A DNA stretch of 64,000 nucleotides, from assembly GCA_020055645.1 (NCBI GenBank), contig CM034546.1, positions 58,714,001 to 58,778,000 on the forward strand, given 5' to 3'. Below are positions 9,576 through 63,690 of the stretch, in pieces. The stretch is from Tomocerus qinae (taxonomy: Eukaryota; Arthropoda; Collembola; Entomobryomorpha; Tomoceridae). Position 1 is the stretch's first letter; the number at the start of each line of letters is the position of its first letter. The translations under genes and the position numbers were made by a program. The notes under the pieces were generated by a model that was not told the origin of the DNA, ran no database searches, and saw only the letters and a program-made list of their open reading frames with translations.

Positions 9576-9803
9576 TAATTTACAGAAATTAAATACTTAT
9601 TATGAAAATGTATAATAAATTAATTTATGATTTTTTATAACAATAGGATTTGCGCTAATACAGCAACAAATAATGAAAACTGGAAGAAAATTGAAAATAC
9701 AGAACCATTTAAGATAGTCAATAGTTGATATGCAAAGTTAAGAGGTCAATATAATATTTATGATAAGCAACAATTTACAGATTTGTATCTAGTAAGTACT
9801 TAC
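9576..9803. other. Putative intron of proline-rich gene 1
   Basis: AT-rich, aligned in order with 13170-13380 and 17560-17750. On the minus strand it starts with GTAAGTACTT next to the short conserved exon. The matching acceptor is clear only in unit 2 (CTGTAG near 13180); in this unit the same place reads CTGTAA. Confidence 0.45.
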
Positions 9804-13135: not shown

Positions 13136-13382
13136 TCTTGACACAGTCAATACAAAATCAATTAATATGTGATAGTATACCCCTACAGATATTAAATACT
13201 TGTTATGGTAATGTATAATAAATTAATTGATGGTTATTTATAACAACAGGATTTACGCTATTACAGCAGCACATATATAATTTAACTGAAAGAATACTGA
13301 AAATACTGGATAATTCAAGTCAGTCTCAAATGAAAAGTTAAGAATTCAATAGTGAAAATAAATTTACAGATCAAGTACTTAC

Positions 13383-29460: not shown

Positions 29461-31560
29461 ATGAAGATGAATTTCTACAGTTGTGGAAAATTGGTATTGT
29501 ATTTACTTATACAATCTAGGATGTCATTCAGCCTAGTAACGTCTAAACCAGGTTCAGTATCAGATCTAGGTGTTCCTAATTCCAATTGTGATGAATACAA
29601 ATACATCGAACAATTTCTTTACAACAATTTAAATTATTGTAAGGTTGTTTTCGTTCAAGAAGCTGATTCTCGTTTAAATAATGAGCTGTTCCATCATTTA
29701 ATTACCGCAACCAAACACACAAGTGTTCTACTTTTAGCCATTAGGAAAAACAATTTTGTATACCAAAATGAAACAAAATTATTGGCCGAGAATATGAATC
29801 AACATAAATTTAAATCAACTTGTTCAGTAGTAATTACTTCAGTTCATCAACTAACGGAAAATTTCTCAAATATCTTTTCAAGTCTGCTTATTTCTAATTC
29901 CAATCCTATAACTGTCAAAGATAAAGACTATTATATATTTTTCACGAATGTATATATTCCTGACGAAATTCGAAAGACAATATTATTACATGAATTAAAA
30001 TATAAAATAATTCTATTTTGTGCCCAAAATTGCAGCGCCCAAATGGTAACAATGTGTACATACTGTGACAACGGGGACTCTGAACTTAAAAATGTCGCAA
30101 TGGTGAACCCTCCATCATTTTCAGATATATTTGAAGATTTTACAAAGAATTTTCATGGGCATAAAATAAGATTAACTGGATATACAGCTTACCCTTATGC
30201 TTATGAAATTCACAAATTAAACGGAGAGTACAAGAATAAAAGGGGATTCCAAACAGAACTTTTTTCTGTGGTTCAAGAAAAGTTGAATTTTACCTACTCA
30301 GTAAAACCATCAACAGGATTTGGTGAAATTCGGGAAGGGGGATCTGGAGTTAAGCTTGAAAATGGAACTTGGATCGGTTGTTTCGGGGATATCCTTTTGA
30401 ACAGGGCAGACGTCGCATTTACCATAGGATTGAATTCTCAGCGTTTTGGGGAAAAAGACATTGAATATACTACACAGACTTCATATGCCTACATTACTTT
30501 TGCAATGCCAAAGGCTAAGACTTTTAACACGTGGAAAATAATATTTCAATCATTCTGCACAAATCTGTGGATTGTTCTCTGTGCAGCATTTGCTTTCACA
30601 ACAGCGGCAGTGTTTTTCCTAGAAAATAATTTTCATTTTGCTAATACCACTAAAGGAGACAGCCAAAAAAACTATTTCAGTGTGAAAGACATAATTATTG
30701 CTCTCTTGGCATCTGCACTAGCTCAACCTGCCCATTGTCCTTACAAATTAGCCTCCAAAGTGTACTTTGCCAATTGGCTTTGTTTTACAATGGTTATCGG
30801 AGTGGCTTACGTCACAAAACTAACATCTCTAATTTCCCTACCTGCAACGGAAACCATTCCTCAGACATTTGATCAGCTTTCTGCATCGGATTTTCAGTTG
30901 GGAGCATCTTTAGGATTTTACGGGGGTGTTGGGAGACTCGTTTTCAAAGATTCTCCGAGTAAATTAATGAAAAATATATACCGAAAACTAAATCGGTATA
31001 AAGACGATGAAATGTGTGTGCTCAAAGCAACAAATTCCAAACGTGCATGTATAATCTGGGATGGTGCGTTGCAATACATCATCAAAAAGGACTTTGCCAG
31101 CAGTAATGGCCAACATCCGTTTTCACCAATCTCAGATATGGTCTCATTTATACCTATAGCTTGGATAACCAGAAGAGGAGCTCCTTATATGCACCAGTTC
31201 AACAAAATTATCCAGAGAGTCAGAGATACTGGATTGGTAGCACAATGGACGGATATGGATTGGGCCAAGCAGAGACAACAGAGATTTGATTTACGTAACA
31301 ACCCAGGACGTTGTAGCAACCCTAATACTACTGATTGCGAGGGAAAAGTTATCAGATACAATCGGGATATTTATGAAAGCGGTTCATCACGCCCATTTAC
31401 TCTAGATCATGTTCAAGGATCATTTTATGTCGTCTGCGCCGGATCTTTCATAGCTTTCGTTGCATTTTTATTCGAATTGTGGAATAAACATTATTCTAAA
31501 GTAGCACATCAAAATATAACAAAAATAAACCTCGAAATTTATATATGGCTCTCAAAATAA
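29461..31560 (+). CDS. Ionotropic receptor (IR), intronless
   Basis: A 699-residue, single-exon protein predicted to be a ligand-gated cation channel of the variant glutamate receptor family in chemosensory dendrites. The N-terminus carries a hydrophobic signal-like segment, then a poorly conserved extracellular domain. A ligand-binding half S1 follows (YKNKRGFQTELFSVVQEKL ... GTWIGCFGDILLNRADVAFT). TM1 is LWIVLCAAFAFTTAAVFFL, then come a pore segment, TM2 (WLCFTMVIGVAYVTKLTSLI, equivalent to the SYTANL region), S2, and TM3 near the C-terminus (FYVVCAGSFIAFVAFLFELW). Six or so N-glycosylation sites are visible. No neighbouring IR duplicates it closely. Intronless copies are common among divergent IRs. 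Ligand unknown. Confidence 0.85.
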   Translation: MKMNFYSCGKLVLYLLIQSRMSFSLVTSKPGSVSDLGVPNSNCDEYKYIEQFLYNNLNYCKVVFVQEADSRLNNELFHHLITATKHTSVLLLAIRKNNFVYQNETKLLAENMNQHKFKSTCSVVITSVHQLTENFSNIFSSLLISNSNPITVKDKDYYIFFTNVYIPDEIRKTILLHELKYKIILFCAQNCSAQMVTMCTYCDNGDSELKNVAMVNPPSFSDIFEDFTKNFHGHKIRLTGYTAYPYAYEIHKLNGEYKNKRGFQTELFSVVQEKLNFTYSVKPSTGFGEIREGGSGVKLENGTWIGCFGDILLNRADVAFTIGLNSQRFGEKDIEYTTQTSYAYITFAMPKAKTFNTWKIIFQSFCTNLWIVLCAAFAFTTAAVFFLENNFHFANTTKGDSQKNYFSVKDIIIALLASALAQPAHCPYKLASKVYFANWLCFTMVIGVAYVTKLTSLISLPATETIPQTFDQLSASDFQLGASLGFYGGVGRLVFKDSPSKLMKNIYRKLNRYKDDEMCVLKATNSKRACIIWDGALQYIIKKDFASSNGQHPFSPISDMVSFIPIAWITRRGAPYMHQFNKIIQRVRDTGLVAQWTDMDWAKQRQQRFDLRNNPGRCSNPNTTDCEGKVIRYNRDIYESGSSRPFTLDHVQGSFYVVCAGSFIAFVAFLFELWNKHYSKVAHQNITKINLEIYIWLSK

Positions 31561-32501: not shown

Positions 32502-35500
32502 TCAAAATAATCCTTCGACCCACTCTTTATAATCTGGGACTTCGTCGTCATGAAATTCTTTGCAATCGACGGTATCTTGCTCATTAGGTGAGTCGATTGT
32601 CTCATTGTCTAATGGTTTGTCTTCAAATATCTTTAAGCGAATTGCATTCCGCACAGTTTGTACTTGAGGATGCAAATTAGCTGAACATTTCATAGAGTCC
32701 GACCATTTCAGTTGGATTAAATTCCGTCTTTGATTATGATTGTGCGATATACGAAATGACGCTGGGACTTCATCTTCTTCATACTGCATCAGAAAATAGA
32801 TTTATTTAACTTTTATTCTACAACAGGATACAAATAAAATAATTCACTTACAGTTTCCATTAACTCGGGGATAATTTGCTCCATTATTTCAGGACCCACG
32901 ATTTTATTCGTCATTACTTCAGACTCGTCATCCTCCTATTAAAGTAATAGTGCAAAATTATTTAATAATAACATCCAAATAAAAAGCATCTATGCAAAGT
33001 TAAGTATTATTTAGATAGCATTGTTATTACATCATTTTTCACACGTTGAATTCTGTGATGGAATGATTCTGCAAGGTTATTTTGATTTACATTGTACGAA
33101 AAATCCCAGAAATGTGAAGAACCGAAATACTTTTTTTCTTGAATGCCTTCCATAAAGGACAGAGCTTGATCAAAGGTAACATTTGTAGTTTGACGAAGAC
33201 TTTTCTTCACTGGTCCTAAGACGACTAAATTTCCTAATCTCGGCAGCACGTACATACTCACTAAAATACATAATGACAAGCAAAATAATGTTATAGACTT
33301 TATATATTTAAATAACGTACATTCTAATTTGGGGTTTGGGGTACCTAATAATAAATAGCTTATGTATAAATATACCAATTACACAAAAATAAGATCAAAG
33401 CCTTTTTTATTAAATTTTCATTAAAAAATGCCAATGATGGTCAATTCTTCTCGGAGAAGGTTCATAATTCCAATAAATTATTTTAATGTCAAAGAATACG
33501 ATTCATGCAATTTGATTTGGCTACTAATTATTACTTTGTGAAATATAAATCGGAAACGGGCAGTTTTACGTAAAGTATTTATAAGTGAATACATAAGATG
33601 ACATCCCTAATCTAATGCTCTTTAACCATTTATTTATTGAAAGCTATTATTATATAATTAACGCGATAAAACAAATGTACAAATATAAAAGTAATGGTTG
33701 GCTTTGAAACTGAACTAATCGTACTTACTCGTAGACTTGGAGTTCCTAATTTCGTGATGCTGTAATTTCAACTTCACAACTTTTCGCAGCTTTTCCGCTT
33801 GGATTTTCTGGAACATCAAGAATCTCTTGAAGAAAATGAGGCCAATGTCTGTGAAGGAAATGCAAGAAGATCTTGAACAGTGCTCTTCAAATTGAAGTTC
33901 ATATATAAGCCATTCTGATTTTTCCGGAAGGATTGGTAGCACCAATTGATCTTCAGTAGTCCCTTTTTTCGATACATACGGATATGCCTCAGAAATGGTC
34001 CAAGATATGAATATAGTTTTCCCATCTTGACGCTTTATTGTGTCTCTCATTTGGACATTCTCTAACACTCCTAAAATGAAATTTACATAATAAATTGTAC
34101 CAAAGACTAAAAATAGCTCTATATAATATGACTGGTCCTACTTCATGATGTCACAAAATTCATTTCGTGTAGTTTTAATACATTCAGTTCATTTATAGAA
34201 GGAGAAGACGTTTAACCGATGTATATTAAGTAATAGTAATAGGCAGAGGAAAGAAAAATGGTAATTTACGTTTGATATCCCCATATGAAGTTATGGCAGC
34301 AACGCAAGATTGAAGGAATTCACTTTCAATAAGCGGAGTTGTGCCAATTTTTTGGTACAAGATGGTAGGATATTCATCTTCGTCACTCGGTTGACAAACG
34401 CCATTTATTTCACTGCTAAAAAAGTAGGTAATTGTCAATTAACACCGACTATTAAATGTGAAAATACCATTGAATACAATTAAATTATTTGTCATACCCC
34501 GATTTAGGTTCTGTATTGTTATTATTTCGGTGCTCATCACCCAAAGGAGAAACTTGATCCACGTTCGATGGCTTTGAATTGATTTCTATTATTTTCTTGT
34601 TCCTTCCGTTTGTCATCCTTTGGTTTCCATCAGATCCGAATTTTTTACTTCCATTTATGGACATAGACCCGAAGCGCGGTGCATTCCTTTTCCGATATTG
34701 GACTCCGTGGATTATGTTTTGATTGTTCTGATTTCTCAATCTTGAAAATGACCGACCAGCTGCATTTCCAAGCGGAGCTGGTCTGTTTTTTTCCAACCGC
34801 TTATAACTGGCCTACAAGTTTTACATTTAATTACACTTTTGAATTAATAAATAGTGAAAGTTGAAGAGTTGAAGTTGGAAAAGAGATTTTTACCAAAGTA
34901 TATTTGTAGGTAGCATCCGAACGTTTCCAATTGAGAAGGCTGACTCGTGGTCGAAGTCTTGATCGAATGTCCCCATCGTTATTAATGTTGGTACTAGGAA
35001 AGCAAATGCAGCCAAACATACAGTTGAAATTTTGACATCGAGAACGAATGATCTCTTTTTGTGCAATAGATTGACAAACACATCCCAATCTACAGAATTC
35101 CTTTTCACACGGTCCACAATATCCGGGGAGAGGGCGAAGATCCACTTCATCGACTTCATAGTCAATAATGACATCTGCTTCTTTGATATATTTATTGTAA
35201 TTGACAACAACCATCGTCCCATTTATCATTAACTTGTTTCTGCCTACTTTTTCGACCGTTGGCTTATCATCTTCAAACCAATGCTTGAATTTGGATTGAC
35301 TTGGCTTCGGCATGTTCTCTTTCGGTAGATCTGAAGATTTATTGGATACAACTAATTTCGTTTGCTCTGGAATGGATTTACTGGAACAAGGAGTAGGCTC
35401 TTCGCTTTTGTTGACTTTATTTCCCTGAGTTTTAACTGGAGACGCCGTTTCGGTTAAATTCAAGTTTGTGGTGTTAATTTCGTCTGGAAAATATGCAACC

Positions 35501-35838
35501 TTGGTTAAATCCAACTTTTCGTCTGATTTTCGTTGGCTACGTGTTCTAATTTCACTGGGCGTAATGTTCAAATTACGTTTGTTTTTAGTGAAAACCTCTT
35601 TTACTTTATCAATTTCGGATGCTTTAACTTTTTTGTCCTTTGAATATTTCTTTAGGAAATCTTCGTGTGGGCTAGGACAACCACTTTCCGGGATACTTAA
35701 AGCACACAACAAACCAACGGATTTAGGCACCTCTGTGCTCTCTGGGTCAGATGTTTGATCCAAAACGTCATCTAGAACTGTAGTTGGTGCTTCCTTTTTC
35801 AGTGTCCTTCTAGTTGAAATAACTTTTTCGCTCGCCAT
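32502..35838 (-). CDS. Nuclear protein with MGA-type cysteine-rich domain, seven exons
   Basis: Exons 34894-35838, 34498-34811, 34270-34415, 33729-34070, 33031-33260, 32852-32935 and 32502-32783 join in phase to 2343 nt (780 residues). I take the ATG at 35838 (MASEKV); the frame upstream is open but has no other ATG. The first ~210 residues are charged and disordered. Residues ~250-300 hold YCGPCEKEFCRLGCVCQSI and CQNFNCMFGCICF, followed by RLRPRVSLLNWKRSDATYKY. This arrangement resembles the conserved cysteine domain of MAX gene-associated protein (MGA). The rest has basic stretches (RKVVKLKLQHHE) and an acidic C-terminus. If the resemblance holds, it is a chromatin or transcription regulator. 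No T-box or bHLHZip region is present, so it is not a full MGA. Confidence 0.7.
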
Positions 35839-37370
35839 TTCTTCAATTAAAGATTTCTTATGCAACTGCCGAGATTACCTTTTGAAAACTATCAAACAAA
35901 TCACAATTTTTTAGTTAGGTTAGCATACAGTTACTCTAATTACGACTACTACTAACTACCTGTACTAAATGTACTGATCATTGACAGTCTGAGGCAGAAA
36001 GAGACAACAACACTCCTTTTCGCTTTTCCAATGCATTCATTTTCGCTCTCATAATGCCCATCACAAAAATAAATTCATATACTATCGTTGTAGTTCTCAG
36101 AATATTATTAATTATGTATTTCTAACTAACTTTACGAAATAATGAGGTGAATGACCTGACAAAAAATGAATACTACTTAAAACGTCAAACAGGAATTCAA
36201 ATGTCTTTTGAGTCTTCTCAGCTGTGTTCATTTAGTTCATTGTATAATGTATGTTAGTTGGTCTAATATATTATTAATACACGTAAAAATGAATATATAG
36301 ATGCTTTAACCAACAAACAACTTATTTAAAACAGCAACGGAAAATGATTATAAACGCTTTGCAAAATTAATACACTTCAAATTTCAAATTATACTTAGTT
36401 CAAATGAACGAATGACAAGTTCAATTCAAAAATGAAATCATAAAACAAAAGGCAACTTCAATTGATATACGTTTTTGCCTTATTTCGCAAACATGTCTAT
36501 AAAAAGTGAGTTAGACATAAAATTGAGGGTAATCTTTGGTTTTCATCAACAGCAATGATAACTTCCTGGACTCTCTCACTTTATATTCACTATGTGGTAA
36601 ATTATTATTCTTAAGATTTTACCAATTCCAAATTTCAAGGTCCAAATCTTCTTATCAATGGGTTGACTCTGATTGTCTTATTATTTTGTTTGCTGTATTA
36701 CTTCTGTTTTCGTCTAAATGCAAGCGAATTTAGCGAATGAGTGAACACAGAAGAACGACGAACTAAAGAATTGACGTAACGTCGTGGTCGTGGCTGTCAA
36801 CTGCCTTGATTAGCTTCGCAGTGTCCTAGTTTGCCCAACTGTTAAAAAAATGTTATAAAATAATTATAACCAAATGCAAAAATTACGTCAAACTAAGCAA
36901 GAAATGGATGACATTTCGTCCAGGAATTGCTTTTGACAATTAAAATTAATGTAATTATGGAAAAGTTTATTACCTCACGCCGTAATTATGGAACACACGT
37001 ACAACGTAAACATGTACGCCATAAAACAAATGCATGCATTGACACTAGAAACCTACAATAAATTATTCCACTTCCTGTTTCTTCACAAGCGAAACTTCAA
37101 ACCAAGTAGTTTGTACGTTTGTAGTTTTCTTTCTGTTGCCGTTCTAACTTCTAACTCTACTAAACATTTATACTTTATCACTTTATACCGTTGCTGACTG
37201 ATGGTGTATGTAATCCGAATGCGAATGTAATCTGAAAAAGTAGCAGTTTGGATCTGAAATCTAATAGTCTCTAATCCATTATTACATCAAAACTCTTCAT
37301 CTTCATAAAAATTATAGATGGCGGGCTATAAAGTTTATTCGAGAGAAAGCAGATTCAACTTCTTCATTCC
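35839..37370. other. Intergenic upstream of the MGA-domain gene
   Basis: No gene, RNA or clear repeat recognised. Confidence 0.6.
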
Positions 37371-44860: not shown

Positions 44861-45670
44861 ATGAAGTTTATTTCGAATATTCTGGCACTGATGATTTTCT
44901 CATCGGAATATTTTTCTGTCCATGGACAAACATATTTACGAGCGGACGGAAAGACAGATACGTACACATTGATTAACCGTGTGCTGGGTGGCACAGCAGT
45001 TGAAGTACCTGATTGTAAACACAAAGTGAAGCACATTACGATGGGAAAGGACAATGAACTAAATCGTCAAGTTTTCCTTTTCTACGCCCATGTGAATGAA
45101 GATGATGACAGATGTACAAAATCAGATCGTCAAAGGACGGAAATCAAAACTTACGGTGGTTCCCCTGATTCGCTTAAAGGATTCCAGGATGAGACTGTCT
45201 ATCTCTCTTGGAACTTCAAACTTGATTCGAAATTCCAACCTTCTACTGCATTTACACATATTCATCAATTGAAAGGCGTAGGCGGAGATGATGGAACGCC
45301 GGTTATCACTCTGACTCCAAGGAAGGGTTCCCAGGATCAGCTACAAGTCATTTATGTTGGCCCCGATGATAAGAAAGTATATCTAGCAAGAGTGGATTTG
45401 GCACCGTTTAAAGGTACCTGGGTTCATGTCGTCGAAGAAGTTACTTATTCCCGCCGAGGAAGATATTCAGTGACGATTACGAGAGTCAGTGATGGAGCAA
45501 CACTTTTAAAAGTATCAAAGAACAATCTGGACATGTGGAGAAAGGGTACCTCCTACGTTCGGCCAAAGTGGGGTATCTACCGCAGTTTGACGAAGAAAAA
45601 TGAACTCAGAGACGAAATCGTTCGATTTGATACTTTCTGCCTTGGAAAGGAAAAGACTCGCTGTACTTAA
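44861..45670 (+). CDS. Secreted polysaccharide lyase-like jelly-roll protein
   Basis: A 269-residue single-exon protein. I use the ATG at 44861 (MKFISNILALMIF), which opens a signal peptide; the frame upstream has no ATG and lies in a likely leader intron. The body resembles the concanavalin-type beta jelly-roll lyases (glucuronan/heparin lyase I and alginate lyase relatives). It has DRQRTEIKTYGG, where R-T-E lies on the active-site strand, then FTHIHQLKGVGGDDG with its histidines and glutamine, and RPKWGIYRS near the C-terminus. It would cleave acidic polysaccharides such as algal or fungal glucuronans outside the cell. Such genes are otherwise mainly microbial, and an intronless coding region suggests horizontal transfer followed by gain of a leader intron. 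AATAAA occurs at 45786. A dead copy lies at 49690. The exact family is not certain. Confidence 0.75.
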   Translation: MKFISNILALMIFSSEYFSVHGQTYLRADGKTDTYTLINRVLGGTAVEVPDCKHKVKHITMGKDNELNRQVFLFYAHVNEDDDRCTKSDRQRTEIKTYGGSPDSLKGFQDETVYLSWNFKLDSKFQPSTAFTHIHQLKGVGGDDGTPVITLTPRKGSQDQLQVIYVGPDDKKVYLARVDLAPFKGTWVHVVEEVTYSRRGRYSVTITRVSDGATLLKVSKNNLDMWRKGTSYVRPKWGIYRSLTKKNELRDEIVRFDTFCLGKEKTRCT

Positions 45671-46713: not shown

Positions 46714-47528
46714 ATGCTTTATAACGTTTTCGTTTTGAAAGATTAATTACAACAACCTATAGAAAATATACTACCTAACATAAAGTAAATATGTGAAAGT
46801 TCTAAATATACTTTTCCATTGCGTGTCTCAGAATCTAATACTTCCCTTGGTTACACTAACCAGGTACTACAACATTATTCAAGCTGGTCAACGAAATGCT
46901 AGGTGTTACGTAGATATACAACAGCAATTATCAAATTAAGTAAGAGAAGCAATTTCAACTTCAATTTCAAAAACACTTATAAATATTTATTGGTAATTTG
47001 GCAGCTATTATAGTACTGCAAGTAGTACAGGAAGGTGTATAATTCAAAGAATAAATAGGTAGAACAGGAACAAAATAAAAACATTTCAAACAATTCAAAC
47101 CATTCGAGTGACTCAATACTTCTTCTATGTAAAATGCAAATTATGCTACATGATAATAATTTAGATAATTGATTCCGATTACAATTAATTACTATTAATA
47201 TTCAAAGGATAAAGGTCTACAATTAACAAACTTTTTTCCCATTTGTGTATAAAGTGTTTACTGTCATTATCTTCATTGTGATGAGGTTTTTTCGGATCGT
47301 AATTATGTTTGAATTATTCATTCTTCGATGTACAACTTCATATTACATGCTATACAGCCTAATCAGGAAGCTGGAAATTTTTTACTTCTCAAAAAAGGGT
47401 TAAAACTTAAAAATAGACGAACAAGCTAAAAACCGAAGTATAATACTACCAAAAGTTTATATTTTTAAAACTCATACATTACATAGACTTTTACATACCT
47501 GGGATATAATAAACCTTTGAGTTACGAT

Positions 47529-49478
47529 ATGGAATTGAAATTAAGGTTGATTTTACTTTGGTTGGCAGTTTTGAGGTTTGGCGAATCTGAAAGACTTTCT
47601 CCGATAAGTCAAAAAACATTCGACAATATTAAAAGTTTTGTTGAACAGTGCGAATATTTTAAATATACATCCTTTCACATAATGGCCAGTCAAACAGCGG
47701 AGAAATCCAATCACAATTTATTGATTAAACAGGTCGTGGTCTACTTGCAAAAGGAAAGATTTGTATCTGTTACTATTGAAGACATTGACCATCGTAACGT
47801 TTCTATCAAATTGTATCGTGACTCACCAAAGGTGAAATATATTGCAATGTGGAGTTTTCAATTGAAATCAATCCACAAATATACTGCAATGAAGAAAGTT
47901 TATTTTTCATTTTCATTTGAATTGACTAGAAAATTCGCTATGTTTTCTTATTGGTCCCCCATTTCTCAACATTGGTGCACATTCAGAGATATTTTAGTAT
48001 CCATCTCAGAAAATGGGAAACGTTGGAATTTTAAAAGTAGCAAAAATGCCAAGTATCTTTATGTATTAAATGCTACAAGTGTCTACAAAGTCTGTCAATA
48101 TTGTATACCATTTACAAAGAACTTTGACGATTATTTGTATGATTTGAAGATAAATGACGAATCAACTTGCCCAGCTGAGAAAATCAAAGTTTTCAAAAGA
48201 CACATTACTATGCATGTTATACAAGCATTTCAACTTTTCTTTCCAAGAGAATTAATCAAAGATCTTGCCTCCAAGTCAATTTGGAAAATAGAGGACAAAA
48301 TGCCATCGCCCAGTTTTTTTATTCTGCAACATCTTACCAAATCTTTAAATGGGACGGGAAGTGCTTGCGCAAAAGGCATTTTAAACTGTGTAGATAACTC
48401 TTCCTCCTGGGGAATTGATATTTATGATTCCGTAGATATAATAGGTGCAAGAAGTTCTGAATTAAATATAATGGATCATGGAGACAGCTTATGCTATCAG
48501 TTTTTAGGGTTGAAGATTGAAAAAGTTAACAGTTGGAAACTACTATTCAGTCCACTTGGCTGGGTTGTTTTATTATGGACTGTCTTGACGGGGCTATTTT
48601 TAAATTGTTTCCTTAATCTGTCAAACAAAAAATCTCAAAATGATCCAGAATTTTCTCAAATTATCATTAGTGGCTTTTTTGGACACGAAGGTGGCTTACT
48701 GAATTCTACTTATCCTTTTATTCTCCGAGCATTAGTAGTGACATGGGTTTTTGCAAGTTTAATTATAACCGAAACTTACACAGGCAATATTTATGGTAGC
48801 CTTGTCTCAAAAAGCGAAAGCTATTTTCCAAAAACGTTTGAAGAACTCCACCAACTCAACCTAAGTGTTTTTAATTCTGGTGACGTAATCGTACAGGAGT
48901 TACTAAGCAAAATTATTTCTTTGGGTTATAACAAGGAAATATATGTGAGCATAAAAGATAAACTGAAAAAATCGAAGGGTGTAATGTTGTCCATGGAAAC
49001 GTTAAACAGACTACAAGAAGGTGCGGTTGCGCTAGAGACGTCAAGAGCCATAAATATTATTATCAAAGTTTTACCGTTGGTTGAAAACAGTACAAATTTT
49101 TACACATCCAAAGAAAAACTTGAAATAAAATTGCTTATGGGGGTTCAAGAACTGCCGATTATCGAGGAAATATACTCGACGTATTTTTCTTTCATCGAGT
49201 CGGGGATTATGACGATTTTAAAAGACTCTTTCCTTAGTTCTGTCACAAAACATTCATCCATATATGTATTGGCTAGGAACTTTGGGTTAAAAAATATTAC
49301 ACTTTTAGATATTAAAAGTCGTCAAAATGAACCGAGCAAGACGGCTCAAGCTTTACATGTTGATAATTTACTTTCGGTGTTCATTGTTCATCTTGTAGGG
49401 TGCGGGATATCTTTTATAGGTTTTTTTTTCTATGACTGGGTTACCTTTATGGACACTAATATACCTGCTTTGCAATAA
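47529..49478 (+). CDS. Divergent ionotropic receptor-like protein, tandem copy A
   Basis: A 649-residue intronless protein. I use the ATG at 47529 (MELKLRL), matching the start of copy B; the frame extends four codons further but without ATG. Parts: signal peptide (LRLILLWLAVLRFG), a ~310-residue extracellular region unlike standard IRs, TM1 (WVVLLWTVLTGLFLNCFL), and a pore-like segment (FSQIIISGFFGHEGG). TM2 is ALVVTWVFASLIITETYTGN, with ETYTGN standing where glutamate receptors have SYTANL. S2 and a last TM (LLSVFIVHLVGCGISFIGFF) follow. This order fits the ligand-gated channel fold, so a chemosensory role is inferred. The protein is too divergent to name a subfamily. Its twin lies 2.7 kb downstream. 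Confidence 0.75.
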   Translation: MELKLRLILLWLAVLRFGESERLSPISQKTFDNIKSFVEQCEYFKYTSFHIMASQTAEKSNHNLLIKQVVVYLQKERFVSVTIEDIDHRNVSIKLYRDSPKVKYIAMWSFQLKSIHKYTAMKKVYFSFSFELTRKFAMFSYWSPISQHWCTFRDILVSISENGKRWNFKSSKNAKYLYVLNATSVYKVCQYCIPFTKNFDDYLYDLKINDESTCPAEKIKVFKRHITMHVIQAFQLFFPRELIKDLASKSIWKIEDKMPSPSFFILQHLTKSLNGTGSACAKGILNCVDNSSSWGIDIYDSVDIIGARSSELNIMDHGDSLCYQFLGLKIEKVNSWKLLFSPLGWVVLLWTVLTGLFLNCFLNLSNKKSQNDPEFSQIIISGFFGHEGGLLNSTYPFILRALVVTWVFASLIITETYTGNIYGSLVSKSESYFPKTFEELHQLNLSVFNSGDVIVQELLSKIISLGYNKEIYVSIKDKLKKSKGVMLSMETLNRLQEGAVALETSRAINIIIKVLPLVENSTNFYTSKEKLEIKLLMGVQELPIIEEIYSTYFSFIESGIMTILKDSFLSSVTKHSSIYVLARNFGLKNITLLDIKSRQNEPSKTAQALHVDNLLSVFIVHLVGCGISFIGFFFYDWVTFMDTNIPALQ

Positions 49479-49689
49479 ATGCAGGAAAATTTGAAAGGGT
49501 ACAAGTTAGATCCACTGTGTAGGTTTAATTAAATGTATGAGAAAAGAAATGTAGATGATATAAATTCCCAATTTAATACAGAATTTGTTTCATTTTGTAA
49601 TACAAGATACATCATGTTGCATGGGGAACTCTGTCTTTATCCCTATGCAAAACTATCGTTGTGCAATTACCCTTGTAGGGGCCCGGCGT

Positions 49690-50015
49690 TTCTGTCCAGT
49701 TTAATGGGAATAGCCCACATGTTGAAATTGCTTGGTGGTAGAGGAGATGCCGGAACGCCGGTTATTACTCTGACTCCAAGGTAGGGTTCCCATGATCAAC
49801 TTCAAGTCATTTATGTTGCTTACGGCGAGAAGAAAGTATATCTATCAAGAGGGGATTTGACACCGTTTAAAGGTACCTTGGTTTATGTCGTCGAAGAAGT
49901 AACTTATTCCAGCCAGTGACGATTTCGAGGGTCAGTGATGGAGCAACACTTTTAAAAGTATCAAAGAACATTCTGGATATGGAGAAAGGATGTGGAGAAA
50001 GGCTACATAATCTCA
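49690..50015 (+). pseudogene. Dead second copy of the polysaccharide lyase gene
   Basis: Matches 45255-45560 of the intact gene: DAGTPVITLTPR is followed at once by a stop (tag where the parent has aag), and later segments (VIYV, VVEEVTYS, VSDGATLLKVSKN) lie in different frames. A ~15-bp piece is missing near 49912, and both ends are gone. It sits between IR-like genes A and B, the place expected from tandem duplication of the lyase + IR unit. Confidence 0.92.
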
Positions 50016-50540
50016 TTTATTACGCACGTAGCGTCTTGTTATACACATCTAACTTTGGTTAAAGCAAGTATTTCGAAATACCAAAGATCCATGTATCAAA
50101 CATTGCAACAAACATTGAATTTTTTTGGTGACAAATATAATAACTTATTTCATGCATGCAGCATAATTACAAGCAAAGAAATACATAGGCACATGATAAG
50201 ATACCTTCGGTCAGAATACACACTTTGTATAAAGAACTTAAAAAATTATGTGGTGGGCGGTATGTTAATTTGATTTTCACTTTTTTATAATTCTTAGCAA
50301 ATGTTTCCAAATTTGAGAATATTGATTATTCCCTTGTTGATGTCTAAAATTTTGCTTGGCTTAATTGTTATTTTAACAAAAACAAGACGGTTGGAGTTTA
50401 ATTAAAGCTTATCAATAATTCAAAGGCCGATGGAATACAAACAGCATTTTAGGCTTGGAAAACATTGTAGTATGATAATCCTTTAATAATATGTTAGTTT
50501 TGAAAGACTAATTACAATAGGTTGCGAATTAAAGTTTACG
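50016..50540. other. Duplicated spacer, copy 2
   Basis: Colinear with 46025-46740 minus the MITE. No gene. Confidence 0.6.
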
Positions 50541-51780: not shown

Positions 51781-52159
51781 ATGTATGTGCTGTATGTATG
51801 GTAATTAAGATAATTGCCTCATTGGCTCCAATTACAATTAATTACAATTAATAATAACAATGGATAAACGATTACAGTTAGCAAACTTTTTATCCATTTA
51901 TGTATAAAGTGTTTAGTCTCATTGTCATCACCGTAATAAAGTTTTTCGGATCGTAAAAACGGTTGAAATATTCATTCTTTGCAACAACATTGGTGATTTT
52001 TACTTCTTTAAAAAAGGGTTAAAACTTAAACCTGGAGTAACAACATCGGAACAACTGAAATACAATACCATCAACAACAGTTCACATATATTTTTTAAAG
52101 TTTTACTACTCTACATAGACTTTACATACCTGGGATATAATAAAACTAGAAATTACAAT
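51781..52159. promoter_or_regulatory. Upstream region of IR-like gene B
   Basis: Shares 'gtataaagtgtttac/agt', 'ttttcggatcgtaa' and 'tttacatacctgggatataa' blocks with the upstream region of gene A (47240-47520). Likely conserved promoter sequence. Confidence 0.5.
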
Positions 52160-54133
52160 ATGGAATTGAAATTGAGGTTGATTTTACTATGGTTGGCAGT
52201 TTTGAGATTTGGCCAGTCTGAACCACTTTCTCCAGAAATTCAAAGTACATTGCAAAATACAAAATTTTTTGTAGAACAGTGCGAATATTTTAAATACTCA
52301 TCGTTCCATATAGTTACAATGTCCAGTAAAACGGGAGAATTGCATAACGATATATTGGTTAATAAAGTAGTAGTCTATTTACAGAAGGAAAGATTGGTAT
52401 CTATTACCATTGAGGACATTGGGCATAATAATATTTCAATCAAACCGTATGCTATGGAATCATCGAAGAAAGAAATCATTGCAATGTGGGAACTACAAAG
52501 AAAATCATCCTACAAATATACTCCGATAAATGGGAGGAAGAAAGTTTATTTATCTTTTTCATTTGAATTGACTAGAAAACTAGCTATGTTTTCATACTGG
52601 TCTCCGATTTCTCAACAAGGGTGCACATTCAGAGATATTTTAGTATCCATCTCAGAAAATAGGAAAATTTGGAATTTTAAACGTAGCAGTAATGCCAAAT
52701 ATCTTTTTGTATTAAATTCTACAAGTATCTACAGAGTCTGTCAATACTGTCTACCATTTACAAAGAACTTTGACGATTATTTGTATGATTTGAAGATAAA
52801 TGACGAATCTACTTGCCCAGCTGAGAAAATCAAGGTTTTCAATCGACACATTATTATGTATGTTATACAAGCCTTTCAACTATTCTTTTCAAGAGAATTT
52901 ATCAGGGATCTTACCTCCATATCCCTTTCGAAAGTGGGCGACAAAAGGTTCCCGCCAGGTTTATTTGTTCTACAACATCTTACTAAATCTTTAAATGGGA
53001 CGGGAAGTGCCTGCACAGACCTATATTCAAACTGCGTCGATAACTCTTCCTCCTGGGGAGTTGATATTTATGATTCCAAAGATGCAAATGCTGGTTTTGG
53101 ACCTCAGTTAAATATAATGGATCAAAGGGACAGCTTATGCTACAAGTTTTTGGGATTAAAGTCTGAAAAGCCCAACAGCTGGAAATTACTATTTAGTCCA
53201 CTTGGCTGGGTTGTTTTATTGTGTACTGTCTTCACAGGATTATGTCTAATTAGTTTCCTTACTCTATCTAATAAAAAATTAAAAAATTATCCAGAATTTT
53301 CCCAAATTATCATTAGTGGCTTCTTTGCACACGAAGGTGGCTTACTGAATTCTACTTATCCTTTTATTCTCCGGGCATTAGTAGTGACATGGGTTTTTGC
53401 AAGTTTAATTATAACCGAAACTTACACAGGCAACATTTTTGGCAGCCTTGTCTCGAAAAGGGAAAGTTATTTTCCTGAAACTTTTGAAGAACTGCACCAA
53501 CTCAACCTAAGCGTTTTTAATTCTGGTGACGTATTCATACAGAAGTTACTAAACCAAATTATTTATTTTGGATATAACAAAGAAATATATGGGAGCATAA
53601 ACGACAAATTGAAAAAATCGAAGGGTGTAATGTTGTCCATGGAAACGTTACACAGACTACAAGAAGGGGCCGTAACGCTGGAGAATTCATTGGCGATAAA
53701 TATAATTATTAGTGTTTTACAATTTGCTGAAAACAGTACAATTTTTTACACATCTAAAGAAAACATTGAAATGAAATTATATGTGAGGGTTTATGAGCTG
53801 CCGATTATTAAAGAAATATACTCTACATATTTTTCGTTCATCGAGTCGGGGATTATGAGGATATTGAAGGACTCCTACCTTGATTTTGTTACACGACACG
53901 GATCCGTACATGTGTTGACCAGGAATTTCGGGATAAAAAATATTACGCTTTTAGATATTAAAAGTCGTCGAAATGAACCGAGCAAGACGGCTCAAGCTTT
54001 ACATGTTCAGAATTTACTATCGGTGTTCATTGTTCATCTTGTAGGGTGTGGGATATCTTTTCTAGGTTTCTTCTATGAATGGGTAACTGTTCTGAACACT
54101 AATCAGCTTTGCAATAAATGCAAGAAAATTTGA
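52160..54133 (+). CDS. Divergent ionotropic receptor-like protein, tandem copy B
   Basis: A 657-residue intronless paralogue of the gene at 47529, with the same start (MELKLRLILLWLAVLRFG), shared cysteines (VEQCEYFKY, CTFRDILVSI, VCQYC) and the same membrane segments: TM1 WVVLLCTVFTGLCLISFL, pore-like FSQIIISGFFAHEGG, TM2 with ETYTGN, and last TM FIVHLVGCGISFLGFF. Most differences lie in the extracellular region and S2, as expected for receptors tuned to different ligands. The C-terminus differs slightly (VLNTNQLCNKCKKI) because copy A reaches an earlier stop. No stops or frameshifts. Confidence 0.77.
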   Translation: MELKLRLILLWLAVLRFGQSEPLSPEIQSTLQNTKFFVEQCEYFKYSSFHIVTMSSKTGELHNDILVNKVVVYLQKERLVSITIEDIGHNNISIKPYAMESSKKEIIAMWELQRKSSYKYTPINGRKKVYLSFSFELTRKLAMFSYWSPISQQGCTFRDILVSISENRKIWNFKRSSNAKYLFVLNSTSIYRVCQYCLPFTKNFDDYLYDLKINDESTCPAEKIKVFNRHIIMYVIQAFQLFFSREFIRDLTSISLSKVGDKRFPPGLFVLQHLTKSLNGTGSACTDLYSNCVDNSSSWGVDIYDSKDANAGFGPQLNIMDQRDSLCYKFLGLKSEKPNSWKLLFSPLGWVVLLCTVFTGLCLISFLTLSNKKLKNYPEFSQIIISGFFAHEGGLLNSTYPFILRALVVTWVFASLIITETYTGNIFGSLVSKRESYFPETFEELHQLNLSVFNSGDVFIQKLLNQIIYFGYNKEIYGSINDKLKKSKGVMLSMETLHRLQEGAVTLENSLAINIIISVLQFAENSTIFYTSKENIEMKLYVRVYELPIIKEIYSTYFSFIESGIMRILKDSYLDFVTRHGSVHVLTRNFGIKNITLLDIKSRRNEPSKTAQALHVQNLLSVFIVHLVGCGISFLGFFYEWVTVLNTNQLCNKCKKI

Positions 54134-56401: not shown

Positions 56402-57502
56402 AGTTCGACCTACCACATATAGTGACATACATAGGTAGGTAAATTTATTGCTTTATCTAAGAATCTAAGACGGTGTTTATAATATAAGTGATACCGTTGA
56501 GTATTTAGTGGACCAATAAAAGAGTTGAAACGATGGAAAAAAAGAAAAAAACGATGAAAATCGATGAAAAACGATGAAAGTCGATGAAAAAGAATATAAA
56601 TCGATGAAAATCGATGAAAAACGATGAAAATCGATGAAAATGTTCAAATCAGTGCTGGTAGTCTAGTGATTGCAAACGGTATGAACATACAACGTTCAAT
56701 TACAAAACGATATAGATACAGAGATACATACAACGGTCAACAGTACGTTTATGTGGTAGTAAAGATGGTATTCCCTTTTTGTTTTGCTTATGGCGTGTGT
56801 GGATGTTCACTTCCTCAGTTGATGCGATTATTCTTGCCTATGCTAAACTGAATTCGTCATTCTAAGTAATTGTCGAATATATCAATCACAGTTCACTTAA
56901 ATTTTCCGTTCAGCGTTTCTGTGTAGAGGTTATCCAGTACAAAATTTGTGCCGTATATCGATTAAAAGCAACTTGTAATATAATATACGTTATTTATTTA
57001 TAGTACTTTCCTAAGATTTAGATGGGTATTTATAGTTATAATGTATACTTTGGATGATTGCACAATATTCACAGAGCTAGATACAGAGGTAAGAGTAGGA
57101 ATCTAATCTATAAAAGAATAGCAATCTCATCAAGGTTCCAGAATCCAGAGTTGATTTTTCGTAGCATCTGTGTTGCACATTTACACATGCAATAGGTTTA
57201 GTAAACCCTGATAAAAATAGAAAACCTCTACTCCTTCTGCTACGCAGATCAGTCAACATAGTCAAGTCGTGGAGTCTGGAGTCTTAAAAAAATTCACACA
57301 GAAAATACATAGTAGACAAAATGAGCCAATAAATTGAGAGTGTATAAATTGTGAGTGTGCGAGGAACGAACGTAAAGTAAATTTACTCAGAAAAAAAGAT
57401 AATAACTGATGACTGAACATCATACTCCAGTTCTCTTATATTTTTACTGCGTTTACATTTTCAAAGACAGACTACAATATAAATATTTAGCCTGCATTCG
57501 AA
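56402..57502. other. Upstream region of the sodium-channel homologue
   Basis: Contains the repeat at 56535-56640; otherwise no gene recognised. Confidence 0.55.
56535..56640. repeat. CGATGAAAA-type minisatellite
   Basis: About ten units of 'aaatcgatgaaa' / 'aaacgatgaaa'. The same motif, in both orientations, forms the core of the foldback element at 50770-50960. Confidence 0.85.
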
Positions 57503-60500
57503 ATGGAAAGTAGCAGAACTGAAGAACAATCGTCGCCATCGCCCAATGTCTTTAAAGTTCTTACCGTTGACACGCCAAAGAGAAATAGTTCAACCAATCT
57601 CCCGGACCCTAATTTGCAAAATGGAAGAATTCTTCCAAAAAAATTTCAAGATCAATTTACAGAGCTCAATGCTTGGGGTAAACCTCTGGAAGATATTGAT
57701 CCATACTATGAAAACGGAAAGGTGAATAAAGATAGATGAATAAATGATATTTCTTTATTGGCATGATTGTATTCTGTTGTTAACTATATGTAACAATGGT
57801 TCATGTAAATCTTCTTTGTTTTTTAGACATTTATAGTTGTTTCATCGAACTACAGAATATTCAGATATTCTTCCCATCATTCCTTATTTTTATTCGATCC
57901 CCTGAACACTTTGAGAAGATTTTTTATTTTTATTTTGACCCATTGGATATTTTGTTCTGTCATGACGACAGCTGTGTTGCTTGACTTTACTTTTCAAGTC
58001 AATTTACTATCAGAAGCCAGGAGTATTCAATTAGACCACGGTCGAGTTCCAAGGTAAATGTACAGTGCCTTTTATACTATAAATATCATCTAAATATTTT
58101 GGAATATGAATGAGTATAATTATTCGACTAACGTGAGTATGCATTTTTAATTTTGCAGAGTTGTTTTCCTTTTCATCTATTTGGCTGAGCTTTTTCTCAA
58201 ATGTATATCAATGGGATTTGTCATGAGTCCGTTCACGTACCTAAGGTCATTTTGGTCCTGGTTAGATTTGATGGTCATTATTGAGTCCTTATGGTAAATC
58301 GACAATTTTACCACCTACTTCCTAACAATGTTGTCTGTGAAGCAAAGACTGATGAATGTTAACAATTATTGTGATTTTGCCCATACATAGGGAAACTTTA
58401 GATTTCGACACTGTATGGATATTTTCGACTGTTGTCCTTTTGAAGATAGTTCCTTACCACTCAGGTAAAGAGTATAAATGGGTAAATGAGACATCTCATT
58501 TCGAATATAGTCTATAATATATTCAGAACCAAGATTTAGTTTTGTAAACATTTTCACAGGTCTGCATCTGGCTTTCGACTTCTGTATTTCTTGTGCACTA
58601 AAATTGAAAGAGATGATAATCGCTTCCATTGCTGTAATGACAATTTTCACAATTATGGGAGTGCAGATGTATATGGGAATACTCACTCAAAAATGTATTC
58701 GTAATTTCAATGCTTCGGACTACCTAAATTACACCGAAGAAGAATTACACAAACAATGGCACGATCACACGTCCAATGATACTAATTGGTACCGGGAGGG
58801 AGAGAGATTATGTGGAAATGTATCAGGGACAGGGTAATTTAAAATTTAGTAATTTATGCAGAGAAGCGTAAGATTTTCCACGACTTTTCTCATTTTAACA
58901 TTACTATTACTATAGATTTTGTCCGGAGGGGTACGTTTGTCTTAAAGGCTATGGTAGTAATCCCGATTTTGGATACACAAGTTTTGATTCATTTTTTTGG
59001 GGATTTCTTTCTGTTTTACGTATGGTGACTCAAGATTTTACGGAATCGTTGATGAAACAGGTGAGTTCATTTTCATATGTGTTCATTTTCATAGATTCCA
59101 TAGAGGCAGAATTTAATTCCCATTCATGTTTTGTAGATTTTTGTGACTGCCGGGCATTTCCATGAAATATATTTCTTTTTCATAATAGTTTTCGGTACTT
59201 TTGGACTAGGAACCTTTGCTTACTCAGGTAATTTTAAATAATAGTAAAGTTGAAATGAAATAATGATAATTGCTAATCATAATTTAATCTTACCATAATG
59301 TAGTCGTAGCTCACACTTTTTTGGAAATGAAAGCTACCAGGGATGAAAACGAAAATTCAGCAAGTCAGAACTGTCAGAGCCGAAGTGACAGATATGCATT
59401 TTCCCGTATGTTTCAAAGTTGGAACTTGCCTCCAGGATTTAACTCTTTTCGTCGGAAAATTCACTGTTTTGCGTTTCATCCGTTCTCGGAAGTCTGTATA
59501 ACTTGTATAATAATTTTGGATGTGTTGCTTATGACGTTTAATATTGAGCAATCAATTTTCATGCAAGTAAGTTATAGTATAATAAAGAGTAAACAAAAAG
59601 CACATTATATACAAAATTTATCTGCAATGTATCACGCTGTTATGAAGTATGTTTTCAAATGTAAAAATTTTTGTTAGATATTCTGCTGGATATATATTTT
59701 GGAGTTTGTTGTGAAATTGTTTGCGGAGGGTCCTCGAGATTATTTTCAGCGAAGAGAACACATTTTGGATACAATAATTGTCGTTCTTTTCCTTTTCACT
59801 CTGTTCGTTCATAGTCCTTTGCTCACCTCATTTCTCGTGGTAAGAAATAAGAATTATCGAAATCTTGTACAGACAAAATTAAATATATTATTTCTTAATT
59901 GAATAATAACGTTTACATTTTATATGTGTAGATGAGAATGTTTAAACTATTCCCAAGATGGCCAAGCCTTAATTTTATAATTCAGTCATTTGTGAATACT
60001 TTAAAATATTACTACTTCATCTTTTTGCTGCTTATAATCGTAATGCTCGTGAATGCCGCAAGAGGAACAGTCTTCAACAGTGATTTGTTCGACGGTTGGA
60101 TTTGAAAATAATTTTATTGAGTAGATTAATAGTCTACTGCTGCTTTAATATTCCGTAAAAGGCCTTGCAAATGACATTTTTTCATGGATATCTGTATTTT
60201 GATTATATTATTATGTTCAACAGATTTATATGAACCAAGATGGAATTTTAAGGATTTTGAACACTCTTTCATGATGGTATTTCGCATTGCTTGTGGGGAA
60301 TGGATTGAATGTAAGACGGATGTTATACGATTTTTTGTAGCATTAAGCCGTATTCAATACGTGAAACAAGATTTTGTAAATATAATGTACAGCTATGTGG
60401 GACACGATGTTATTGGAAGGATTTGTCGGCGTTACCTTCTTCATTCCGGTGGTGCTAGTGACATATCTGATCTTGACGATTGCTGCCGCAGCTATTATCG

Positions 60501-63500
60501 TTGAAACAGGAGAAACATTCAGTAAAATAGAATTTCAGGAAAATGCATTGTCTTCAAAATTTGAAGATGGATTACAAAGAGTGTGTGTTCCTCTTACATG
60601 GCTAAGATCCAAAATAAACCCTGGTGGACAAACCCATGATATTTTAGAAGAAGCTCCTATTCATCGTGACTCGTCTCCAGGTCCAAATTCAGTCGGTGAT
60701 ACTGAAAGACATCTAAACATCATTGATAAGATCATTTACAACAAATGCTATTCCATTCTTTCCATTGTCGTTCTTTTATGGTGCTCGTTTATGCTGGTAA
60801 AACAACAGCCACTTGAATTATGTGATTTAATACAGTACCTCCTAAAAGTGACCATAGGGATTACATGCCCCTTATGGGAAATTATGAAAAAAACCATTGT
60901 CCATAATCTAATTTTTTCATATCTTCCTATACATCGTAATCCCTATGGTCACTTTTAACTGCTCCGTACTGTAATATAAATAAAATGTTCTTTTGTTAAT
61001 GTTCTCATATTTTCTGTATTGTTAGACTTTTGAAATTGAACCTCATGACGAAGACAAACCAAAATTAAATATTTCACACGTAAATGCGGAAGGGAATGAA
61101 ACACACCACTCTGATTCGTCGTATGTGTTTCAGTTAAGTATATTATTTTACTCCGATATACTTTTCACGGTTTATTTTGGACTGGATATTATACTCAATT
61201 TGTTAAGCTGTATAATGAAGAAACGATGGGTCAGCAGTGGGTGGATATTCGACTTGATTCTTGTTACCGTAAGTTTTATTTTGTCTCACGGTTCCGTATA
61301 ATGCAAATATTACTGTTATAAAAATTAAAGTATCAAAGTATCTCTCTAATTATGTATATTAGGAAATGATTTTCAATTTCATCATGTATGCTCCGCATTC
61401 AAGCCCACTTCATGGATTTTTTTATGTCAAATGTTTTCGTCTCTTTATGCTGGTATCCAGACTGGACGGATTGAAAGTAAGATGAGACTAATTTACCAAA
61501 TTATTCATTTGTTCTTTGAACATGCTCTGATTTCTTCTTTAATGTTGCAGGCTGTGATAAGTGGATTGATAACTGAAATTACTCTTTTGTGGAAATACGT
61601 ACTGGCTGGATGCTTTATACTTTTAGCATTTGACATTCAAGGAGTTCAACTATTCCACCATAGATATGCTAGGGTAAAAATTTCTGCTAAATCGTTTTAC
61701 CAGATTTTTGGTCAAAGAAGATTAATGTATAATTAATCTAAACTTTAGTGCGTCGATCCTGTAGATTTCAGTATGCCAGATGTAAAACTAATTGATAATA
61801 AATCAATGTGTTTACTCCATAATTTCACCTGGGAAACCCCGGATGCCAATTTTGACAATACACTAAACGGGGTAGTTGCATTGTTTTATACATTGACATT
61901 AAACGGCTGGCTTCAAGTTTTGCATAGCGGCGTAGATATACGTGAGGTTAGCAAATAAAAATATTTTCAAAATAACTAAGATAAGGTTTTGATAAATTTC
62001 ACTACCAAATACCATTGACGTAATCATGTAATTGGAGTTTTTTAAAACTTGTACAGATAGACGATCAACCAGTACGAGATGCAAGCTTTCACAATATATT
62101 TTATTTCATTTATGTAATCTCTATGGGATGTTTCTTTCTATTTTTTGTCTACGTAGGAATTATCATCCATTACTTCAGAACAGATAAGGTAATAATTATT
62201 CTACATTGTATACACATGATACACTTTAATAAAAACATGTAATTTGGCCATCTATAAAATTAACCCGGGTAACAATCAGGATCCAGACATCTAAAATATA
62301 AATGTGTAGAGATAGGGCACAATGTGCTAATTATTAAAATGTTACAATTAAATTTCTAAAATATTATTTTACATGTTTACAGTACAAAGGAATATTCATG
62401 TCATTTAACCAGTTCTTCGAATACAAAATGAAAACAAGACAACTGCTTGAGTCGACATCTGAAGAGACGGCAACAGTAAAAATTCCGGAACCGACTTGGA
62501 AAGGGCTAAAGTTCTTCTATAATATTGTTGAGAGCCCATTTTTTGATAAATTCATTATGTCGGTCATTATTTATCAAATACTCACATCGGCTTTTGAATT
62601 TTATAGCTTCCACGCTAGCGTAAGTTATTAAAATTAATACTAATTATGATCTTAATATATTTATACGAATATAATATTATTAAGTCTTTAGTTTAATTAA
62701 TGTAGTGATAATATGCGTCTAATATGTAGGTAGTAGAATGATTATATTATTTTCAAATACGTTTTACCTCCTCAGTCATTACAGATTTCGCTGTGGGTTA
62801 TAATGGATCTCACCCATTTCTTCGTGATGATTATTTTCACTGTTGAAATGATTTGCAAGCTTTTAGGGTGGAGGCAGCATTATTTCAAGAATATATACAA
62901 CAGAATTGACTTTGTTGTCACCATAGCTTTTATAGAAGGTATGCACGGTAACCTTTAATGATGTTATAAATCCATCCCACATTTTTACCATTTATTGTCA
63001 ATATAACTTTTGTGCTTACATTTGTTCGTTGCAGATGTTTTCGTCGGTTTCATATCCAATATCTTCATATCACCGACTCTTCTATCAATACTTCGAATAT
63101 TTCGAATATTTCAATTTGAGCCTTTCAGAAGAAGAGCTGTGTTATCCAGAAAATATCTGAAATCGTTAGGTCTTGTTAGGCCGGCGCTTTTAAATTTGTT
63201 CCTTTTTCTTGCGATTAACTTGTTTTCCTTTTCTTTGATGTTCATGGCCATTTTTCATAATGCCAAATTGACAGGAATACTTGATATAGACTTCAACTTC
63301 AGAAGTTTTGGCAAATCTTTCAGTCTATTATATCAAATGGCTACTTTCGGAGGTTGGGATGGTATTTATAAATCTCTGACGAATGAGAATAATTGCTATC
63401 AGTCAAATTCAGAAAACGAAGGCAATTGCGGATTTCTGATTAAACCATCTCTGCTCATCTTCTGTTATCTATCAGTTTCTGTAATCACAGTCCTGAATAT

Positions 63501-63690
63501 TTATATTGTATTTACCCTTGAATTCGTCAAGAGGCTTTCAGAAAATGAATCGGAACGTCAGACTAACAATGACACAACAAATAACACAGAAATGTCAAGC
63601 AACAACGCAAATTCATCTTCAGCTAATGTTGAGAATTCCCATGTTGATCGTATGAATTTTAAAGAGTTTACAAACTCTTCTTTTACATAA
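57503..63690 (+). CDS. Divergent voltage-gated sodium channel homologue (four-domain, DENG filter)
   Basis: Twenty exons: 57503-57721, 57827-58053, 58159-58293, 58391-58464, 58560-58833, 58916-59060, 59137-59227, 59304-59566, 59678-59839, 59932-60094, 60224-60310, 60393-60796, 61026-61268, 61363-61476, 61551-61673, 61749-61946, 62057-62188, 62383-62619, 62776-62938, 63035-63690. Phases agree at every junction; 4110 nt, 1369 residues (para is ~2100). Para-like landmarks: [70 protein letters not shown]-like IQGVQLF, GWDG. The selectivity positions are D350, E610, N960 and G1257 instead of D-E-K-A. In domain I S4 the gating charges become D200, W203, S206 and V209; domains II-IV keep only some. 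The III-IV linker keeps IFMS (1022-1025). I-II and II-III linkers are short and the C-terminus lacks EF-hand and IQ regions. Probably a plasma-membrane cation channel or regulatory subunit with weak voltage sensing. Confidence 0.88.
60832..60972. repeat. Inverted repeat in intron 12 of the channel gene
   Basis: 'Aaaagtgaccatagggatta' (60843-60863) and its complement near 60937-60957, with outer 'acagtac' and 'gtactgt', make ~40-bp arms around a ~65-bp loop. Probably a MITE remnant. Confidence 0.8.

Follow-up and report, generated by a model that had tools for sequence, protein, structure and literature searches.

What kind of channel is encoded by a relative of the arthropod sodium channel para whose selectivity ring has lost its lysine? 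The question is raised by a gene in the window analysed here, a stretch of 64,000 nucleotides from the springtail Tomocerus qinae (bases 58714001-58778000 of contig C1; the assembly searched comprises 334.4 Mb in 115 contigs). The ring, to which the pore loops of domains I to IV (DI to DIV) each contribute one residue, reads Asp-Glu-Asn-Gly (DENG) in this gene and Asp-Glu-Lys-Ala (DEKA) in para. Judged from its sequence, the gene is probably a selected member of a para-derived family of poorly selective cation channels that are weakly voltage-dependent or voltage-insensitive, convergent with the human channel NaX. A sharper version is put forward tentatively, as a leading possibility rather than an expectation: that springtails independently evolved from para a NaX-like family of voltage-insensitive monovalent-cation leak or salt/osmo-sensing channels, by coupled remodelling of the filter (DIII Lys to Asn, loss of a DI Trp, gain of a Phe immediately ahead of the DIV ring position) and by giving up voltage sensing.

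The gene was rebuilt as 20 exons in phase, joined through 19 GT-AG introns and encoding 1369 residues (4110 coding bases with the stop codon, no internal stops), in agreement with the model of an earlier note made from the DNA alone. The weakest donor is that of exon 10 (GTTGGA; GTTTGA and GTGTGA at its counterparts in the paralogues). On this contig, at a distance of 33 Mb, two paralogues carry all 20 exons and the same DENG ring, and a chance origin of the model is therefore excluded; their exon lengths differ from those of the window gene solely in multiples of three. An error in the gene model was considered and rejected, as the paralogues agree with it. In both of these copies the exon 6 donor is GC, where the window gene has GT. 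Pfam recognises four Ion_trans stretches in one chain (315.8 bits). The solved structure that best matches the window protein is that of the insect channel NavPaS (612 bits), the best T-type Cav channel scoring 177 and NALCN 53 bits; membership in the Nav2, Cav and NALCN classes was rejected. Two repeats were noticed by eye: an inverted repeat around GTGACCATAGGGATTAC in intron 12 (60828-60975), which resembles a small foldback element, and a short tandem repeat of about GATGAAAATC at 56520-56640, some 900 bases upstream of the gene.

In an alignment of 19 channels, D350, E610, N960 and G1257 of the window protein fall in the same columns as the D, E, K and A of para, and the ring is DEKA in all ten para proteins aligned. 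The ring proposed in the earlier note is thus confirmed and is none of DEKA, DEEA, DENA or DENS; its description of the pore loops as para-like is likewise supported. It had also known of no described class with a DENG ring. This stands in so far as no report of such a ring was found among the papers listed from the open-licence PMC literature, judged by title and the start of the abstract, but the kind of ring has precedents: aphids (DENS) and NaX (DENA) already provide Nav1 relatives whose DIII filter residue is Asn.

The window gene is not alone. A genome search with its protein gave 71 matches; all counts are lower bounds, scoring having covered 34 of the 89 first-look candidates. At least seven para relatives with non-DEKA rings were found, the window gene included. 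Three have the DENG ring, namely the window gene and the tandem pair at C1:91.65 and 91.67 Mb (L031 and L032). Three others have DENS (L033, L048 and L049, at C2:44.97, C3:39.5 and C1:123.79 Mb) and one has DEDA (L047, at C2:14.74 Mb). None of the seven has DENA. The final models contain no internal stops; those of L047, L048 and L049 come from a custom spliced aligner that penalises stops and may miss ends, their ends being open, and exon 1 of the L048 model should not be relied on. Beyond the DENG trio, identity between members is 26-42 per cent. The same genome retains one ordinary para with a DEKA ring and an MFM gate, as well as at least four Nav2/DSC1-like genes (C2:66.79, C1:105.68, C1:99.64 and C2:29.48 Mb), of which two models are nearly whole but rough (both DEEA, one with three stops) and two are partial. 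The window protein is 33 per cent identical to para and 26 per cent to Nav2.

Protein searches were limited to candidates of 0.55-1.75 times the query length, which places fragments outside them. No closer relative appeared among the best 120 of 1402 matches to the window protein, nor among the best 120 of 1453 matches to a profile of three of the seven genes; the matches listed in both searches came from insects, and almost all of them carried the name para or sodium channel. This does not imply absence of the family from other springtails, as slow evolution of para could rank distant orthologues below the best 120. As far as searched, what is new is the family of at least seven genes beside a kept DEKA para, with lost sensors and coupled filter positions. 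The earlier note had missed the loss of charges from the fourth segment (S4) of the sensors, the existence of six more relatives, the remodelling of the filter scaffold and the kept DEKA para.

The filter has changed around the ring as well as in it. The Trp two residues past the DI ring Asp is gone in all seven genes (Thr in three, Pro in L033 and L048, Leu in one, Ala in one). The residue before the DIV ring position is Phe in all seven and Ser in 10/10 para proteins. The DIV ring residue itself is Gly in three genes, Ser in three and Ala in L047, and the ring letters are identical across the three DENG genes.

Voltage sensors were scored at the 21 S4 charge columns of para. Springtail para keeps 21/21 charges and two Nav2 models keep 19/21 and 20/21, while each DENG gene keeps 9/21, L033 13/21, L047 and L048 12/21 each, and L049 11/21. 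In the window gene, 1/4 charges remain in DI, 2/5 in DII and 3/6 in each of DIII and DIV. The sixth-segment (S6) Asn is lost from DI and DII and kept in DIV throughout the family; that of DIII is lost in the three DENG genes and L047 and kept in L033, L048 and L049. The Phe-Met (FM) of the III-IV inactivation gate is kept in 7/7 genes with a variable first position, the window gene having Ile-Phe-Met (IFM). The three DENG genes compared contain nothing recognisable as the EF-hand and IQ region of para.

Descent was judged from introns, diagnostic columns and trees. Of the 19 window introns, 13 lie at springtail para sites (10 exactly, 3 within two columns) and 3 at sites of the Nav2 models (2 exactly), the latter being lower bounds because these models have implausibly short exons. 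Introns at alignment columns 1668 and 1827 are present in all five of the family models that were compared but absent from para and from the Nav2 models; para may alternatively have lost these two. Of 207 columns diagnostic for para versus Nav2, the window protein matches para at 67 and Nav2 at 34; at the other 106 it matches neither. In each of the seven genes para states outnumber Nav2 states, with roughly half or more of the columns matching neither. In the 19-row tree the seven group together with a Shimodaira-Hasegawa-like approximate likelihood ratio test (SH-aLRT) value of 100, to be read with a long-branch warning. As the trees are otherwise unstable, it is the shared introns and the diagnostic columns that indicate derivation of the family from para. 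On the question of orthology to NaX, intron positions and overall protein similarity lean towards arthropod para.

The DENG genes are under purifying selection. The window protein is 87 and 86 per cent identical to the two copies, and the corresponding ratios of nonsynonymous to synonymous substitution rates (dN/dS) by the NG86 method are 0.27 (0.21-0.32) and 0.33 (0.27-0.42); that between the copies is 0.31 (0.24-0.38; 100 bootstraps in each case). YN00 gives 0.36-0.43. On these three pairs a simple pseudogene was rejected, as the earlier note had argued from the twenty exons in phase. Segment values come from short segments and carry no intervals; they are low in the DI and DIV pore (0.17-0.19) and the DII sensor (0.13-0.22) and, against one copy, fall to 0.12 in the N-terminus and 0.14 in the I-II linker. 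Exons of the copies are 77-96 per cent identical, and introns mostly lower in the same alignment.

How such a channel would work can be modelled on human NaX. In the excerpted text of PMC8931054, NaX has a DENA ring and fewer S4 charges, is voltage-insensitive and, when unlocked, is non-selective among monovalent cations. Its DIII Asn bonds the carbonyl of the Phe that precedes the DIV ring Ala, and in DI a Pro stands in place of the usual Trp, two residues past the Asp. The NaX sequence in the PDB reads QDYPEVLYHQI (DI), TFNGW (DIII) and IFAGWD (DIV), and the DI loop of L033 reads QDYPQELYNQI; human NaX is the best solved match to this loop, at 68.1 bits. For the DIV pore of L048, NaX ranks fourth among solved matches, within one bit of NavPaS. 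The family pore would fold as in NaX, and Asn in place of the DIII Lys would leave a wider, more electronegative filter. Sodium and potassium, perhaps with some calcium, would pass with little preference. The weak sodium selectivity is inferred from the lysine-free, wider filter, as the earlier note had also proposed from the loss of this lysine, and is supported by experiments in which DENA and DENS put into fly Nav1 shifted the reversal potential and lowered sodium selectivity (PMC4332693, as excerpted). Steep opening on depolarisation would be absent; the channel would carry a leak, or a current set by a lipid, ligand, salt or partner protein, and the conserved III-IV triad would continue to hold back the S6 gate. 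The expected role is that of sensory or homeostatic cation channels, not of action-potential channels. The further suggestion of a calcium-permeable pore is favoured by analogy: the same excerpts give the authors' reading of the DENA and DENS channels as an increase in calcium permeability, which leaves room for some calcium permeation, whereas the comparison with NaX points to monovalent cations. Leak, salt sensing and closure at rest would all be compatible with the sequence.

Several observations weigh against a NaX-like, voltage-insensitive family. The DIII ring Asn is found in six of the seven genes, L047 having Asp, and the DI proline of NaX in two of the seven only. The Nav1.7 entries, at 66 bits, are two bits behind NaX for the DI pore of L033, and over the whole window protein NaX scores 417 bits, the lowest among the full-length sodium-channel chains listed. 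The residual S4 charges of DIII and DIV could still sense some voltage. Constraint is uneven, with looser segment values in the DII pore (0.27-0.56) and DIII pore (0.36) and the loosest in the DI sensor (0.54-0.79), DIV sensor (0.38-0.49) and C-terminus (0.38-0.58), so parts of the channel may be relaxing. Rooted on Nav2, the 19-row tree shows an open three-way fork of springtail para, insect para (97) and the family. In six reduced trees the Nav2 rows fall inside insect para in two (with L047 alone and with L048 alone), next to springtail para, or between springtail para and the family, in three (support 0), and beside insect para in one (84); no consistent attachment point for the family emerges from the trees. 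To work like NaX could also mean to be shut at rest.

The most serious competitor, though in itself unlikely, is a voltage-gated channel with reduced but sufficient sensors, in which the DIII and DIV charges drive opening and selectivity alone has changed, as proposed for aphid Nav channels. The half-complete sensors of DIII and DIV in the window gene, the 3-4 of 6 charges in each of these domains in its relatives and the conserved FM of the gate suit this account. Yet in all seven genes the two outer DII charges are gone, as are one or both of the first two in DI, the DI sensor has the highest or second-highest dN/dS of any segment, and the aphid channels retain a complete S4 charge set according to the excerpts of PMC4332693.

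We regard as improbable a non-conducting or regulatory protein, one that acts by binding subunits or partner channels or that needs modification before it opens, its filter being irrelevant. Native human NaX gives no reliable current by itself and has a closed S6 gate (PMC8931054, as excerpted), the S6 Asn is lost from DI to DIII of the window gene, and constraint on its pore segments in DII and DIII is no more than moderate. Against this, the DI and DIV pore loops are among the more constrained stretches, and the ring has not changed in any of the three DENG genes.

Rather less probable still is an old third class, one that predates the Nav1/Nav2 split or the springtail/insect split, or that derives from Nav2, and so is no springtail offshoot of para. 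The unresolved fork of the Nav2-rooted tree and the unstable Nav2 rows of the reduced trees would fit it, and one window intron is common with Nav2 and absent from springtail para. The intron count nevertheless favours para over Nav2 by 13 to 3, the diagnostic columns lean to para in every gene, and the pore words and FM gate are of para type. That the window gene is a decaying duplicate, intact because the duplication was recent, is very improbable indeed: introns and flanks of the copies are also alike (blastn pieces spanning exons and introns are 77-89 per cent identical), but dN/dS is clearly below 1 in all three DENG pairs, exon lengths differ in threes only, and the other members are widely diverged with stop-free models.

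If the family is NaX-like, the NaX filter would be a repeatable evolutionary outcome, the direction taken by a Nav1 scaffold once freed from action potentials. A kept DEKA para beside at least seven altered relatives would offer a natural test of which positions change together when voltage-gated sodium function is lost, and the family would serve as a second and seemingly independent example for checking what is disputed in the physiology of NaX. Its genes may also be extra targets, or non-targets, of para-acting insecticides in soil animals.

Table 1. Parts of the DENG channel gene, in window coordinates (S1-S6, transmembrane segments).
Feature	Position	Strand	Basis
Whole gene, start to stop codon, 20 exons, 1369 residues	57503..63690	+	rebuilt model
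Exon 1: N-terminus	57503..57721	+	
Exon 2: N-terminus to DI S1-S2	57827..58053	+	
Exon 3: DI S2-S3	58159..58293	+	
Exon 4: DI S4; 1/4 para gating charges kept	58391..58464	+	
Exon 5: DI S5 and turret	58560..58833	+	
Exon 6: DI pore loop	58916..59060	+	
Codon of ring residue D350; +2 position Thr (Trp in para)	59034..59036	+	model and alignment
Exon 7: DI S6, S6 Asn lost	59137..59227	+	
Exon 8: short I-II linker, DII S1	59304..59566	+	
Exon 9: DII S2 to start of S4	59678..59839	+	
Exon 10: DII S4-S5	59932..60094	+	
Exon 11: DII pore loop	60224..60310	+	
Codon of ring residue E610	60298..60300	+	model and alignment
Exon 12: DII S6 (Asn lost), II-III linker, DIII S1	60393..60796	+	
Exon 13: DIII S1-S3	61026..61268	+	
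Exon 14: DIII S3-S4; 3/6 charges kept	61363..61476	+	
Exon 15: DIII S4-S5	61551..61673	+	
Exon 16: DIII pore loop	61749..61946	+	
Codon of ring residue N960 (Lys in para)	61902..61904	+	model and alignment
Exon 17: DIII S6, Asn lost	62057..62188	+	
Exon 18: III-IV linker, DIV S1	62383..62619	+	
IFM triad of the inactivation-gate region, kept	62392..62400	+	
Exon 19: DIV S2-S3	62776..62938	+	
Exon 20: DIV S4 (3/6 charges kept) to C-terminus, without recognisable EF-hand/IQ region	63035..63690	+	
Codon of ring residue G1257 (Ala in para); F1256 stands before it (Phe also in human NaX)	63349..63351	+	model and alignment

Elsewhere in the window, an intact polysaccharide-lyase-like gene lies at 44861-45664 (+), its Pfam PF14099 score of 27.4 bits being just under the cut-off of 29.9. 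Among the best 120 of 1157 matches, Folsomia candida and Orchesella dallaii are the sole animals given by name; Chitinophagaceae and Pedobacter also have relatives of it, and the gene is likely, by its sequence relationships, to be an old horizontal transfer. Pieces resembling the lyase (GTPVITLTPR, WIWRKD) were seen by eye at 49533-50270 (+) without a full frame and are probably the remains of a second copy. Three long frames resemble ionotropic receptors (Lig_chan; 29458-31557, 47526-49472 and 52148-54127, all +), the last two looking by eye like a close tandem pair. On the reverse strand there are two adjoining cytochrome P450 genes that are near copies (20227-21846 and 23652-25216; Pfam matches on the last exon of each only), three long frames rich in proline, with numerous repeats and with ends that look similar by eye (7818-9596, 11804-13222 and 16231-17526), and a frame with an MGA conserved domain (34837-35874; 39.2 bits).

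Among known systems, arthropod para/Nav1 shares with the window channel the four-domain layout, the pore words, 13 of 19 intron places and the FM gate motif; the window channel differs in that it lacks DEKA and the EF/IQ region, keeps 9 of 21 S4 charges and has short linkers. Nav2/DSC1 channels are also four-domain sodium-channel relatives, but the two nearly whole models from this genome have a DEEA ring and nearly full S4 charges. Several Nav1 genes are reported from another group of arthropods, the copepods Calanus finmarchicus and Labidocera madurae, but the sequences given in the excerpts of PMC3929608 and PMC5655441 keep DEKA. In aphids, the Nav channel H1/H2 is described in the excerpts of PMC4332693 as encoded by two half genes, with a DENS ring, full S4 charges and no other identified Nav1; the excerpts of PMC5824947 mention neither DENS nor DENA. 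The aphid channel resembles the family in its DIII Asn and small DIV residue, with the same DENS letters in L033, L048 and L049, whereas the window channel is one four-domain gene that has lost S4 charges in a genome that keeps a DEKA para. Vertebrate NaX (SCN7A) shares with the family a Nav1-type scaffold, DIII Asn for Lys, a replaced DI +2 Trp, Phe before the DIV ring residue, reduced S4 charges (PMC8931054, as excerpted), a hydrophobic III-IV triad and occurrence beside ordinary Nav1 genes. It differs in its DIV ring Ala (Gly, Ser or Ala in the family, the Ala of L047 being accompanied by a DIII Asp), while the springtail family has at least seven genes, introns at arthropod para sites and, in its DENG members, no C-terminal EF/IQ region. 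Because the family shares introns with arthropod para, its resemblance to NaX is read as probable convergence.

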